From positions 1-26,424 of IMG/VR virus record IMGVR_UViG_3300027906_000129: a stretch of DNA of 26,424 nucleotides; one strand, written 5' to 3'. The notes under the pieces are model-generated. The model made no database searches. It saw only the letters and a program-made list of their open reading frames with translations, and was not told where the DNA came from. The translations under genes and the position numbers were made by a program. Positions within the stretch are counted from its first letter, which is position 1; each line of letters starts with the position of its first letter. Positions 12,395-25,230 of this stretch are shown here, in pieces. Source of the DNA: a virus.

Positions 12395-13900
12395 TTAAAA
12401 TTCCACTACGACTTTAATATCCTCTGTTTGGTCTGAGGCTCTTGAGATTGCTCTTCTATTTTCAACATAGATTATCTCACCAGTATCCCTTGAAAGTTCT
12501 GGAACTGCATAACCACTAGCAAAGACAACACCATTAGTAGTTCCAGATGTTGAAGATGCTGGGGTATGAGCGGCACTAGAATTTGCACCAGATACAGCGT
12601 TTGCACCAGAAAATGCAGTAAGGTTTTGACTTGCATCTAATCCATAGTTTGTATATTTTTCTTGAACATAATAAAGTATTCTGTTTGTTGCATCCCACTC
12701 TACTACAGTACCAACTGCACCAGTGGTTGCTTGTGTAATCTTCTCATCAATTTGATATGTTCCAGAACCACCAGCAGCCATTAGTATTGCATTTGTAGTT
12801 CTTGCAGTTGCAAGGGCAGCAACATTATTTGTTGCAGAATCTTTTGGGTTTTTGACAATACCAACTCTTCTGAAGTCATTTACTTGAACAACATCTGAAT
12901 CTGCTGGTTCTAATTTTGATTGTAACATTACATAATGTCCACCAAGTTCTGCAATATCATCAGTACCGTGACCACTAGGTGGGTCTATAATTGTTTTAAT
13001 TGTACCAGCTGTTGCGCTATTCCAATCTGATAATGTTCCACCAGCAATTGCAGAAGTAGCAGCTGTGTTTGTGTAGATGTTTGTACCAGAAAGGTCAAAA
13101 GATGCAAACGAATATCCAGTTCCATTTGCTTGCATATATGAGGTTGAAGATAATGCATTATTACCAAATTCTGAAATTGCACCACCAGATACTACAATCT
13201 TTGCGATACCTCCAGTACCATCACCTCTTATTTTTGTATAATAAGTTCCATTTGGATATGAAGAACCACCAGATGTTACCATGAATACATATACACCTCT
13301 ATTTGCATCAGCGTTTGCGTTTACTTTAACAGGCATAAAGTCAGTTGTCAAGAAGTTTTGTATTTCTGAAGTTGTCATAGAATACATATACTTGATGTAA
13401 TAATTATTATCTTGCCAGAATGGAGCTGCGTTAACTGAAGTTGGTTCAGTTCCAGATATATTACTTGCACCAGTTTGGAGTTGGTCACCATTATAAAGTA
13501 CTTTGTATACTTTATTTTCAGTAGTTTTGAAATAATATGTGGAATCAAACACACTCGTTGCACCACTAGAAGTTGTAGTTTTTGTGTTACTATAATTACC
13601 AGTACTTGTACCACCAACATCATGTCTGTACATATCAAATGCACTAGTTGTTGCATAATCCCTACGAGGTATTACATATGATTTTGAAGATATAAGTTTT
13701 GCAGCCAACATATCATCCCAATAATATGATTCGTCTGCAACACTATCTACTGGAGTTGGGGGATTACTATCCGTAGCTGCACCTTCTGAAGTCCAAGGAG
13801 ATGGTTTACCAACGAACATATAGTATTTACTAGATGCTACGTCAGAGAAAAACGCATCTGCATTTGACTGTCTAAATTTTTCTGTAATTATCGCTGCCAT
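12395..13900 (-). CDS. 8: Baseplate wedge protein, T4 gp8-like
   Basis: Both ends match T4 gp8 from memory. The start has IITEKFR...MFVGKPSPW...NPPTPVDSV...YYWDDMLAAK and VIPRRDY. The end has RDTGEIIYVENRRAISRASD then QTEDIKVVVEF, like T4's GEMIYMENRPPI...DQTEEINILF. In T4, gp8 forms a dimer in each of the six wedges and binds gp10, gp7 and gp6. This copy is 501 aa against 334 in T4. Extra length includes a module near residues 380-400 (YQIDEKITQATTGAVGTVVE) of the type also seen in the 981-aa and 2289-aa proteins. AGGA lies about 8 nt upstream of the ATG. It follows the 581-aa adhesin, so fiber genes are interposed between the wedge genes here. Confidence 0.93.
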   Translation of the reverse strand: MAAIITEKFRQSNADAFFSDVASSKYYMFVGKPSPWTSEGAATDSNPPTPVDSVADESYYWDDMLAAKLISSKSYVIPRRDYATTSAFDMYRHDVGGTSTGNYSNTKTTTSSGATSVFDSTYYFKTTENKVYKVLYNGDQLQTGASNISGTEPTSVNAAPFWQDNNYYIKYMYSMTTSEIQNFLTTDFMPVKVNANADANRGVYVFMVTSGGSSYPNGTYYTKIRGDGTGGIAKIVVSGGAISEFGNNALSSTSYMQANGTGYSFASFDLSGTNIYTNTAATSAIAGGTLSDWNSATAGTIKTIIDPPSGHGTDDIAELGGHYVMLQSKLEPADSDVVQVNDFRRVGIVKNPKDSATNNVAALATARTTNAILMAAGGSGTYQIDEKITQATTGAVGTVVEWDATNRILYYVQEKYTNYGLDASQNLTAFSGANAVSGANSSAAHTPASSTSGTTNGVVFASGYAVPELSRDTGEIIYVENRRAISRASDQTEDIKVVVEF

Positions 13901-22302: not shown

Positions 22303-22309
22303 TATTTAG
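22303..22309 (-). promoter_or_regulatory. CTAAATA motif at the gp5 stop
   Basis: The heptamer includes the gp5 TAA stop and is followed by the AAAGAGG ribosome site of the 62-aa gene. A late start 6 nt downstream would fall inside that ribosome site, leaving a leader of about 12 nt, which argues against a normal promoter here. Confidence 0.3.
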
Positions 22310-24555
22310 ACAATCGTACTAGAAGTTGTTGTACTTCCAGTAGATGCATTTGCAAGTGCAACACCTCTTTCTTCATTAAATCTATTTCTAATGCCTGAAT
22401 GAAGGCTTGGACTACTTTTAAATCTTGTAGATATAGTTGCAAGTTTAATATCGTGTATTTCATTAATTAGGTCTGCATCTGTAATTACTGTTACTGGTGG
22501 GTCTTTCCTTGCGTTTTTTTGTTTCAGACTTGTATGTGCTTCTCTGAATATCTTTCTAGCACCGCCTGGCCCAAACTGTACTGCTGTACTCCAGACTGTA
22601 TCTTGCAATCCATTACTATGTGTACCATCACAAACATTAATTCCAGTATCTTTTGTTATAGTACGAACAGCTGGGTCATGATGTGTTCTTTGTATAAAGT
22701 CGTGTTGTGCTTGTTTAAACCTTGTTGCAGTTGTATCATTTGCGGCTAGTTCTTTCCATTTATTTCTAAACGAAGTGTCACCTCTTGTTGCGGCCGCATT
22801 ACCCCCAACATTGTTTAGACTGTTATAGAAATCTGAATATCCGTTTTCTTCTTTTGCTAGGAATGACATCCAACTCTTAAATGTTCCAACCTTTGTCGCA
22901 ATCTGATAAGAACCATATGACCAACCACCTCTATCTTTTGATGCAGATTTTGTATTGATAGCGCCTGGATTTCCATTTGATTCAAATCTTTCTGATTGAG
23001 AACCTAAATCTGCTCTTGTACAATCGCCTGGCTCTGTTATTGCATTTTCTGGTATTGCACCACTTTCTGCACCAGAACCACCAGCGGATACTGCACCACC
23101 ACTTCTTCCTGCTGGGGGAGAAAGACTTCTTGTTGCGCCAGTATCATCATCTTCACCTTGTGGGTCATCATCTCCAGCACCACCTACTGTAGAAGACTTT
23201 GGTTCTGAAGTTAATATCTCTGGTAGTTGTATTTCTGTTAAATCTGTTTCCGTAACTTCTGTAGGTTCAGTTGAAGAACCACTATCACCAATAAGAACAG
23301 TTCCAGAACCAGCTTCGATTACATCACTACCATCACCGTGGGCGCCCTCACCAGAATCGGCTGCATCACCTTTACGAGCTGCGTTTTGCGTTCCACTTGG
23401 TTGATTGATTTTTACAGTAGAACCATCTAAAGTTACATCACCAGTGATATCCATATCAAGAGTTGTACCAATACGAATAGTAGAAGACTCTGTTATGTTT
23501 TGTTCGTATGTTTCTTTTAGAAACTCTTGTACCTTTGCACTATAGTTTCTTGTAATATCAGATTTGATATGTTCTGAGAACGTATTATCCTCTGCACCGT
23601 ATCGTAAATCTATGTTACCGTGTATACTTTCATCAAACGCATCATTGTAAACATTAAATACTGCACCATTAATATCAGTAGTTCTTGCACCTTCAATTTT
23701 AATTGTTTTGCTTCCACCAACATCTTCAGTATAATCATCCGTAACTTCTATATTAAATGCTTTACATTTAATATTCAGAGTGCCTTCAACAGTAAGATGC
23801 ATATCACCTTGAACGTGCTCGTGATTATTTCCACTAACTAGATGATAATCATTTGATACAACTTTGTCTACACGATTACCAGCTGCGTCAACTTCATAGA
23901 ATGTGCCAGGCATTGTATGTTGTGCAACTCTTTCAACACCAGAACTATCGTCATATTCTACAATATGTCCAGACTCAGATTCAAAAACATGGTTCTTTGG
24001 GTATACTGCATTATATGTTGTGGTAGGTTCATCATATGTAGTTCCATCTGCACTACGAATACCTTCAACAACTTTTGCTTTCTTGTCACCTACAATTGTA
24101 TCTTGTACTTCAAAGTTTCTTGCAAGTCTATTAGTGTCTGGTTCTCCAGTGGTTCTTGGATAGACAGAAGTATTATATCCATCTAGGTCTGGATTAGTTT
24201 CTCTACGATTTGGGTCATGAAAACCCTTATTGGGGTCACCTAATTGGTCTGGAACGCCAGGCAGTGAACCCATAATAATTGGTTCTTGCAATGTATCTGG
24301 GTCACGAAAGAAACCCATAACCCAAGTTCCTTCAACTAAGAACCCAGGCGTATGACCCATACCATTCATTGATGGTGTGTGAACTGTTTGTAGTACCCAC
24401 GCCCAAGGTAAATCCTCAGTGGGTATTTTTACTTTATCGTCTGTATGATAACCTACGCAACGAACACGAACACGGCCTAGTTTTGTTGGGTCATTTCTAT
24501 CCTCAACAACACCAGTGAACCATACAAACCCATCTTGACCTTGAAAGTTTTCCAT
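22306..24555 (-). CDS. 5: Baseplate hub/tail-tip protein, T4 gp5-like, with C-terminal muralytic domain
   Basis: Residues 1-100 form the gp5 OB-fold (FVWFTGVVEDRNDPTKLGRV, then LPWAWVLQTVHTPSMNGMG, then VMGFFRDPDTLQEPIIMG). Residues about 190-385 give a VgrG/gp5-type beta-helix needle (GHIVEYDDSSG, NNHEHVQGDMHLTVEGTLNI). A linker rich in Gly, Ser and Asp (about 395-510) follows. Residues about 512-700 look like a lysozyme-like peptidoglycan domain: E522, E525, SNGNPGAIN, GGWSYGSYQIAT and VWSTAVQFGPGGARKIF. C512 and C642 could pair. T4 gp5 (575 aa) carries its lysozyme between OB-fold and needle; here that place has under 90 residues. The ATG has no Shine-Dalgarno and sits 5 nt after a CTAAATA box. 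It heads the baseplate operon. Confidence 0.92.
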   Translation of the reverse strand: MENFQGQDGFVWFTGVVEDRNDPTKLGRVRVRCVGYHTDDKVKIPTEDLPWAWVLQTVHTPSMNGMGHTPGFLVEGTWVMGFFRDPDTLQEPIIMGSLPGVPDQLGDPNKGFHDPNRRETNPDLDGYNTSVYPRTTGEPDTNRLARNFEVQDTIVGDKKAKVVEGIRSADGTTYDEPTTTYNAVYPKNHVFESESGHIVEYDDSSGVERVAQHTMPGTFYEVDAAGNRVDKVVSNDYHLVSGNNHEHVQGDMHLTVEGTLNIKCKAFNIEVTDDYTEDVGGSKTIKIEGARTTDINGAVFNVYNDAFDESIHGNIDLRYGAEDNTFSEHIKSDITRNYSAKVQEFLKETYEQNITESSTIRIGTTLDMDITGDVTLDGSTVKINQPSGTQNAARKGDAADSGEGAHGDGSDVIEAGSGTVLIGDSGSSTEPTEVTETDLTEIQLPEILTSEPKSSTVGGAGDDDPQGEDDDTGATRSLSPPAGRSGGAVSAGGSGAESGAIPENAITEPGDCTRADLGSQSERFESNGNPGAINTKSASKDRGGWSYGSYQIATKVGTFKSWMSFLAKEENGYSDFYNSLNNVGGNAAATRGDTSFRNKWKELAANDTTATRFKQAQHDFIQRTHHDPAVRTITKDTGINVCDGTHSNGLQDTVWSTAVQFGPGGARKIFREAHTSLKQKNARKDPPVTVITDADLINEIHDIKLATISTRFKSSPSLHSGIRNRFNEERGVALANASTGSTTTSSTIV

Positions 24556-24560
24556 AAACT

Positions 24561-24567
24561 TATTTAG
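24561..24567 (-). promoter_or_regulatory. CTAAATA late-promoter-like motif abutting gp5
   Basis: The box ends 5 nt before the gp5 ATG and lies just downstream of the intrinsic terminator, where the late operon would be expected to start. With the T4 spacing of about 6 nt, transcription would begin at or near the A of the ATG, giving a leaderless message. No Shine-Dalgarno is present to contradict this. Confidence 0.45.
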
Positions 24568-24572
24568 TGCGT

Positions 24573-24606
24573 AAATAAAAAAAGAGAGAACCGAAGTTCC
24601 CTCTTT
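24573..24606 (-). terminator. Intrinsic terminator with UUCG tetraloop
   Basis: On the minus strand AAAGAGGGAAC pairs with GTTCTCTCTTT (11 bp, one G-U) across a TTCG loop closed by C-G, followed by a T-rich run (24573-24583). This is a textbook rho-independent terminator. It should end transcripts from the 122-aa/54-aa unit and shield the gp5 operon. Confidence 0.92.
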
Positions 24607-24710
24607 CCCAATCCGAAGATTGTCTCCTTTGTTGTATCACCCTTGTCTAATCCGAATCTTATTCAGCGATAGGTAGGCACCGTTACGGTTGGGTGTTAGC
24701 CTATTCTTAT
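24573..24710 (-). ncRNA. Candidate structured RNA ahead of gp5
   Basis: About 135 nt between the 54-aa gene and gp5, ending at the UUCG terminator. Visible pairings on the minus strand are TAGGC (24703-24699) with GCCTA (24678-24674), ACCG/CGGT with a TAA loop inside it (24689-24686 with 24682-24679), and a CAATC-TTCG-GATTG hairpin (24622-24609). CACCC (24695-24691), bulged in the first stem, can pair with GGGTG (24642-24638), making a pseudoknot. AAGATT (24660-24655) can alternatively pair with AATCTT (24621-24616). It could be a free small RNA from the GATAAATA box or a structured 3' UTR of the early unit. No known family is recognised. Confidence 0.4.
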
Positions 24711-24715
24711 TTATC
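24708..24715 (-). promoter_or_regulatory. T4-type late promoter GATAAATA
   Basis: The octamer overlaps the stop of the 54-aa gene. A start near 24702 would fall exactly at the beginning of the candidate structured RNA, which then runs about 120 nt to the terminator. That would make a complete small transcription unit. It may be chance, given the shared stop codon. Confidence 0.4.
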
Positions 24716-24875
24716 CACCAAAGTAAATTCCCATTTGTTGGATTAAATACCACCAAGTATATTCCTTGGAATTTTCAACACCGAATATCCATAAAATGTC
24801 TATCCAACCAAATGCGAATACAGCAATAAAAATGTATCCGATAAATTCACTAGTCCATTCTTTAACACTGGTCAT
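24711..24875 (-). CDS. Small membrane protein, 54 aa
   Basis: ATG at 24873-24875 with a strong AAGGAG 7 nt upstream; TAA at 24711-24713. It overlaps the 3' end of the 122-aa gene by 14 nt in another frame, so it is likely coupled to it. The protein begins MTSVKEWTSE, has a hydrophobic helix at about residues 11-32 (FIGYIFIAVFAFGWIDILWI), then FGVENSKEYTWWYLIQQMGI and a YFGG end. The helix plus a Trp-rich interface region suggests a single-pass inner-membrane protein. The strong ribosome site and membrane-like sequence argue it is real despite its length. The function is unknown. Confidence 0.8.
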   Translation of the reverse strand: MTSVKEWTSEFIGYIFIAVFAFGWIDILWIFGVENSKEYTWWYLIQQMGIYFGG

Positions 24876-25230
24876 TTGTAACTCCTTGTTCTATTGCTGC
24901 TTCTTGCATAATAGGTGTCAAAACTTCTTCAACAGCATTTTCCCAATCATCCCAAGTAATGTTACTAGCATGATGAACGCTACTCTGAGTAGGAGCCCAA
25001 CCGAAGATATTTTTGAAAAGAGCCCTTTGATTACCAAGACCATTATTGAAAAGGTCATAGGCTGCGTTTTGCGCCCTTCTGAATTTATCTAATGCTTTGT
25101 TTTTTGAATTAGGAAACTCGCATCTACCAGCTAAAGGTAGTAAATCATTTAAGTTATTATTAAGATGTGAAAAACCTTGGTTCATTCCCCAAGTATTTGA
25201 AAACAATTTTTCTTGATAACCTTGATACAT
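24862..25230 (-). CDS. Conserved-type phage protein of unknown function, 122 aa
   Basis: A mostly helical soluble protein: MYQGYQEKLFSNTWGMNQGF, then GRCEFPNSKNKALDKFRRAQ and NAAYDLFNNGLGN. A C-terminal acidic helix follows (WDDWENAVEEVLTPIMQEAA). I recall similar short proteins (YQGY-EKLFSNTWGMNQGF, CEFP-SKNK-LDKFRRAQ) in marine T4-like phages, without known function. It is the first gene after a near-consensus sigma70 promoter, with a leader of about 24 nt, so it is probably early. It is followed by the overlapping 54-aa membrane gene and then the terminator at 24573-24606. Confidence 0.75.
   Translation of the reverse strand: MYQGYQEKLFSNTWGMNQGFSHLNNNLNDLLPLAGRCEFPNSKNKALDKFRRAQNAAYDLFNNGLGNQRALFKNIFGWAPTQSSVHHASNITWDDWENAVEEVLTPIMQEAAIEQGVTNDQC

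Follow-up and report, generated by a model that had tools for sequence, protein, structure and literature searches.

What does the intergenic stretch upstream of gp5 in the virus record IMGVR_UViG_3300027906_000129 encode, and does it belong to a neighbouring mRNA or function as an RNA in its own right? The window is the whole stretch of DNA that was analysed, 26,424 nucleotides from IMG/VR, and by gp6 the closest isolated phages are Methylophilales phage Melnitz (55% identity) and the Pelagibacter phages Mosig and HTVC008M. An earlier note, made from the sequence alone, had suggested a phage small RNA, a regulatory 3' UTR or a leader of the adjoining tail-tip gene. All genes around the locus lie on the minus strand. 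Two small ORFs without a PHROG match (24862-25230 and 24711-24875, together 24711-25230) are preceded by a sigma-70-like promoter (TTGACA-17-TATAGT, 25289-25261, a consensus match), and gp5, the baseplate hub and tail lysozyme gene (22306-24555), is preceded by a separate CTAAATA box (24561-24567) that lies 5 nt ahead of its ATG. Seven TAAATA boxes occur within 40 nt upstream of the minus-strand genes of the window compared to 0.8 expected, and are therefore likely to be late promoters of this phage. Given the sigma-70-like promoter ahead of the small ORFs, the layout is an early-type two-gene unit, followed by a knotted RNA with its terminator and then by late gp5.

The knotted RNA occupies positions 24577-24703 on the minus strand, 127 nt from the first helix, P1, to the end of the terminator T-run. 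It is preceded by a late-promoter-like box, GATAAATA (24708-24715, a consensus match), which overlaps the stop codon of the 54-aa ORF (TAA, 24713-24711), and P1 starts four bases after this box. The 5' strand of P1, UAGGC (24699-24703), pairs with GCCUA (24674-24678) over 5 bp and encloses one strand of a pseudoknot, CACCC (24691-24695), whose partner GGGUG lies at 24638-24642, as well as the inner hairpin P3, ACCG-UAA-CGGU (24679-24689). Hairpin P4, CUGAAU-AAG-AUUCGG with a conserved U.G pair (24652-24666), is connected to the second pseudoknot strand by the joining segment AUUAGACAA (24643-24651), for which a census of 16 variants was made. The 3' part consists of a purine-rich, Shine-Dalgarno-like linker, AAAGGAG (24624-24630), a UUCG hairpin, CAAUC-UUCG-GAUUG (24609-24622), and an intrinsic terminator, GAGGGAAC-UUCG-GUUCUCUC followed by seven T (24577-24603). 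No start codon follows the Shine-Dalgarno-like tail in the window, and no conserved reading frame was seen across the knotted RNA. The box, the ACCG/CGGT hairpin, the CACCC/GGGTG complementarity, the UUCG hairpin and the UUCG terminator of the earlier note are thus all found on this strand, while its bulged stem is a stem of another form, namely the 5-bp P1 around a pseudoknot strand, and P4 is an element additional to those it named.

The folding energy of the whole stretch is modestly better than that of shuffled sequences (z -1.8), with the hairpin-terminator part at z -3.1 and the 5' part at z -0.15. Energy alone therefore gives no support for the 5' part, which is supported instead by comparative data, with strong covariation in P1, the pseudoknot and P4. 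A covariance model, R1, built from 12 sequences that include the window sequence, scores 136 bits at the knotted RNA as its sole match within the window. The core model R2 (75 positions), built without the window sequence, gives the window a score of 40.8 bits (E 2e-9).

Members share a fixed order of elements: P1, the pseudoknot 5' strand two to three bases further on, P3, the P1 3' strand, a joining segment whose last bases are usually UCG, P4, an A-rich joining segment, the pseudoknot 3' strand, the purine-rich linker, an optional hairpin and the terminator, which is present in every complete member inspected. P1 is AAGGU/GCCUU, UACGC/GCGUA or CAGGU/GCCUG elsewhere, with covarying pair types UA/AU/UG/CG, GC/CG and UG/CG/AU/UA, and P4 reads CUGA[A/G]U-NAG-A[U/C]UCGG in most members. 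P3 varies in size, with relatives showing other pairs and loops (ACC-GUAA-GGU, AC-UUCG-GU, AGCG-AUUA-CGCU, GGCA-GUAU-UGCC), and is weak or absent in others. The pseudoknot is found in the compensatory variants CCAAC/GUUGG, UCAAC/GUUGA, CUGUU/GACAG, CUAGU/ACUAG and CCACG/CGUGG, and further compensatory changes, such as CCAGC/GCUGG (L335) and CUAAC/GUUAG (L304), come from the independent gp32-anchored sample described below. Of 60 distinct cores, 39 have AAGGAG in the linker; most of the remainder retain GAGA, and six have neither. The UUCG hairpin is the optional element, varying in sequence and replaced by an unrelated hairpin or by none in other members. Two groups of members (L034/L022/L005/L032/L035 and L201/L203/L210/L238) carry an extra 5' domain of about 40-120 nt, either AGTAGATTAAGTTGCGAAAATTAGGAAT or CCCCCAG...GCGAGACTAATTTTC...CTCCAC, between the promoter or stop codon and P1.

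Since the first MAFFT alignments mis-registered two subtypes, pairs were counted on a 32-column gap-free core parsed by hand, and also on a 16-row set. Across 25 distinct, related rows, compensatory double changes are found in 10 of the 16 core pairs (6.1 in shuffled data), including all five pairs of the pseudoknot, although in seven rows of the CCC/GGG subtype only three of these five pairs form in the register used. Double changes occupy 59 cells compared to 17.3 after shuffling, the covariation score is 0.427 compared to 0.145, and 91% of cells are paired compared to 76%; none of 500 shuffles came as high on these measures. Hand-parsing leans towards structure, which gives particular weight to two checks, the slid controls and the sample anchored on gp32: moving the partners by one to three columns reduces pairing from 91% to 30-46%, so that every slid register collapses. 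The fifth pair of P4 shows an AU/GC compensatory change (14 GC and 10 AU of 25 rows), and the U.G pair of P4 is kept in 21 of 25 rows; the search patterns had in part preselected the P4 motif, a selection from which the gp32-anchored sample is free. As this U.G pair is possible on the minus strand only, the RNA strand is the minus strand. Taken together, these data show that the structure of the knotted RNA is conserved by selection, and the check in relatives for which the earlier note had called comes out in favour of its stems and of the pseudoknot it had raised as a possibility. Its competing fold, AAGATT/AATCTT, can form in the window sequence but is not a conserved switch, because the full six-base form is present in only 2 of 60 distinct cores.

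Relatives fetched by gp5 contain the knotted RNA, and two DNA patterns enlarged this set. R1 recovered members in phages fetched otherwise than through gp5, many with the knotted RNA after gp32, and R2 retrieved additional, more diverged members. In all, about 105 IMG/VR contigs, counted by hand as those with confident covariance-model matches, match R1 or R2, most at E < 1e-5, and contigs of 123, 152 and 173 kb have one strong copy each. The independent sample consists of 80 loci picked by gp32 protein similarity alone and not by the RNA. Eleven of these have a match (E from 7.6e-26 to 5e-6), in every case 3' of gp32, while one more matches weakly (E=0.5); three of the members, L335, L304 and L350, are without the DNA patterns of the earlier searches. 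The exact core has no match in 84,980 bacterial and archaeal species genomes (two scans), and three members compared by blastn with 50,697 phage records gave terminator-size matches only. An R2 scan of ten whole isolate genomes (Melnitz, pelagiphages, cyanophages and C48C1) gave none below E=0.1. In Melnitz, a match that follows the gene for the major capsid protein (L226, 39.6 bits) was rejected, as it shares the terminator only. The 207-nt gap 3' of gp32 in Melnitz EXVC044M holds a degenerate look-alike (L259:3913-3981, R2 E=0.13) with the motifs AAGG..CCUU, CUGG/CCAG and UGAAU-UGG-AUUCA.

To our knowledge, the structured RNAs known from phages are few, apart from tRNAs, tmRNA and a small number of motifs. 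In Rfam 15, nothing matches the window at the gathering threshold, the best sub-threshold score being 17 bits where 58.7 are needed, which agrees with the earlier note recognising no Rfam family. At permissive thresholds only chance matches appear, including one of terminator size in the member L105, and RF01739, RF01745 and RF01761 match neighbouring stretches but never the knotted RNA. The names found in the literature on cyanophage and pelagic phage RNAs are the glutamine riboswitch, tmRNA, manA, wcaG, PhotoRC-II, CfrI and abiF, and no description of the knotted RNA was found there. The manA (RF01745) and wcaG (RF01761) RNAs are structured RNAs of marine T4-like cyanophages (Weinberg 2010, PMC2864571). 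They resemble the knotted RNA in deriving mostly from marine metagenomes and T4-like phages, and in L367 a manA RNA takes the gp32 3' slot. However, the manA model has 192 positions and several stems, a size and fold other than those of the knotted RNA; R2 does not match the manA stretches of L367 and L304, and the Rfam manA and wcaG models do not match the knotted RNA. RF01739, the glutamine (glnA) riboswitch that Melnitz and other marine T4-like phages are known to carry (PMC9004378), is likewise a small conserved phage RNA and a neighbour of the knotted RNA in L019/L201/L203/L210, but it is a separate element on the opposite strand and its model does not match the knotted RNA. Bacterial sRNAs derived from 3' UTRs commonly comprise an mRNA 3' end with a shared terminator and sometimes an internal promoter; the knotted RNA differs from these in being phage-encoded, in its knotted core and in having no recognised CU-rich seed. 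The knotted RNA is a new, previously undescribed family within phage structured non-coding RNA.

The genes upstream of the knotted RNA vary. In the commonest group it starts between -8 and +3 nt from the stop codon of gp32 (PHROG 224, E 1.6e-114), which encodes the single-stranded-DNA-binding protein central to phage replication, with a convergent next gene; most gp32 genes sampled are without it. In L149 a tRNA-Gly lies between gp32 and the knotted RNA. In L100/L142/L182 the gene upstream is an ORF of 122-126 aa, the 126-aa ORF of L100/L142 being unrelated; in L281 it is a small ORF, and L164 has the knotted RNA within a gene-poor stretch. In the window clade the knotted RNA sits between the small ORFs and gp5, whereas most family members are far from gp5. 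A permuted tmRNA of the alphaproteobacterial type is located about 1.1 kb from the knotted RNA of L142 (4385-4750, minus strand). The 3' flank of gp32 appears to be a favoured site of structured RNAs. The manA RNA of L367 (2459-2632) lies directly 3' of gp32, L304 has a below-threshold manA match (2450-2610) between gp32 and the knotted RNA, i.e. in tandem with it, and manA-like sequences after gp32 were also seen in L308, L359, L362 and L374.

Promoter-like sites vary along with the upstream genes. In the window, L029, L026, L031 and L002/L222, a late box precedes P1 by 3-5 nt despite different upstream genes. In T4, the late box is positioned at about -13 to -6, and with this spacing transcription is predicted to start at the base of P1; by the same reasoning the gp5 box predicts a leaderless late gp5 mRNA. 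Sigma-70-like promoters, both consensus matches, lie upstream of the knotted RNA in L034/L022/L005 (TTGACA-N17-TATAAATA) and in L297 (TTGACA-17-TATGAT). No promoter-like box was seen directly before P1 in the gp32 group, where the RNA starts at the stop codon and for both reasons may be a 3' UTR only. The strand of the knotted RNA is thus defined, it is present in a single copy per long contig, and both the genes and the promoter-like sites upstream of it vary.

The region before gp5 shows further features in relatives of the window phage. The TAAATA box about 5 nt before the gp5 ATG (24555-24567 in the window) is also found in L001, L014, L019, L024, L026, L029 and L034 and is kept although the intergenic sequence differs. 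In L007 (1584-1698), L014 (4023-4160) and L015 (1967-2075) this slot holds a different candidate small RNA, with a sigma-70-like TTGACA-17-TATACT followed by GAGUGGGUGUCC...GGACUC and a UUCG terminator, and with no clear match to the knotted RNA family. The glutamine riboswitch of L019/L201/L203/L210 lies on the opposite strand between the knotted RNA and gp5, in L201 at 13035-13086 on the plus strand; it precedes a short ORF (MNTIIFQLIKHI...), and this ORF and the knotted RNA apparently have a common bidirectional terminator.

How, then, might the RNA act? The main rival to an independently working RNA, because the knotted RNA so often begins at a stop codon, is a cis-acting 3' UTR element that would stabilise or cap the upstream mRNA, or terminate it cleanly, and would never exist as a separate RNA, the mRNA being that of gp32 in most phages and that of the small ORFs in the window. 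In most members the RNA begins at the upstream stop codon, oftenest that of gp32, or no more than a few nt away from it, which also keeps the regulatory 3' UTR of the earlier note under consideration, and the unit ends in a terminator that often lies between convergent genes. Nevertheless, this reading appears doubtful, if quite conceivable, in view of the promoter-like sites in L297 and L034/L022/L005, the late box before P1 in the window clade and the tRNA that intervenes in L149; moreover, the detailed conserved core seems to go beyond what stability needs, and most sampled gp32 genes do without it. The commonest position, directly 3' of gp32, would also suit a binding site for the gp32 protein, acting as a pseudoknotted autoregulatory operator or decoy by analogy with the 5' pseudoknot of T4 gene 32 but moved to the 3' side, as the gp32 proteins of T4 and RB69 recognise a pseudoknot on their own mRNA (PMC535899). 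The T4 operator, however, is a 5' leader element, a pseudoknot of about 28 nt together with a less structured part with UUAAA repeats over the ribosome-binding site (PMC535899), whereas the knotted RNA lies 3' of gp32 or elsewhere and has a larger core of about 75 nt. With the window clade, L100 and L297 not next to gp32 at all, such a site is improbable.

A leader, attenuator or riboswitch of the downstream gene, gp5 in the window, could draw on the position immediately ahead of gp5 that the RNA has in the window clade, on the aptamer-like knotted core and on the genuine glutamine riboswitch nearby in relatives. It is nonetheless very improbable, since gp5 has its own late box, the terminator separates the RNA from gp5, and many other members have an oppositely oriented downstream gene; furthermore, the competing fold is not conserved and no Rfam riboswitch matches. 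The leader of the tail-tip gene proposed in the earlier note finds no support, in view of the late box of gp5 and the terminator, as well as of the riboswitch that intervenes in four contigs and the distance of most members from gp5. The helix order of HDV-like ribozymes is a nested pseudoknot with P3 and P4, and the knotted RNA shares it (P1, P2 as the pseudoknot, P3, P4 and J4/2, with P3 weak in part of the members), while in many members the segment that joins P4 to the pseudoknot strand contains C-N-A-A. Predicted self-cleavage is even so scarcely credible: the position of the active-site C lacks a C in 14 of 60 distinct cores, on which ground the HDV ribozyme was rejected, no P1.1 nucleotides are conserved in the P3 loop or after P1, P1 has only about 5 bp, and no HDV family of Rfam matches.

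The reading that we favour, and regard as probable, is that the knotted RNA forms a new family of phage structured RNAs, which would be made either as an independent short transcript or as the 3'-terminal part of a longer one. Its structure, its single copy and its changing neighbours and promoters speak for an RNA that functions as one unit, made alone or cut from the 3' end of a longer transcript. The phage small RNA of the earlier note is well supported as regards structure and gene-like architecture. In the window clade, the late box would give rise to a discrete RNA of about 110-130 nt whose 5' end coincides with the base of P1; in other members, this RNA would start from a sigma-70 promoter or be processed out of the 3' part of an upstream transcript, that of gp32 or another. 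P1 and the pseudoknot at one end and the terminator at the other may protect the ends. During infection the core and its AAAGGAG/GAGA tail might act in trans by binding a protein or the translation machinery. Contact of AAAGGAG with the 16S anti-Shine-Dalgarno stays a tentative suggestion because of the limited occurrence of AAGGAG among the cores, and such pairing as a universal feature was rejected on the same count. More speculative, and rather unlikely as it stands, is the view that this is a widespread trans-acting phage RNA with a new nested-pseudoknot fold, made while aquatic bacteria are infected, which would bind the host translation machinery through AAAGGAG and the 16S anti-Shine-Dalgarno, or a phage replication protein, for example gp32, and time the switch from replication to late expression.

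The knotted RNA adds to the few known structured RNAs of phages a family that is spread over environmental T4-like phages, mostly beside gp32, and its structural model makes the family directly searchable in meta-transcriptomes. Should the look-alike in the Melnitz gp32 gap prove to be truly related, this phage and its OM43 host would offer a laboratory system. If the RNA is trans-acting, it would supply a layer of regulation so far missing from an abundant virus group.
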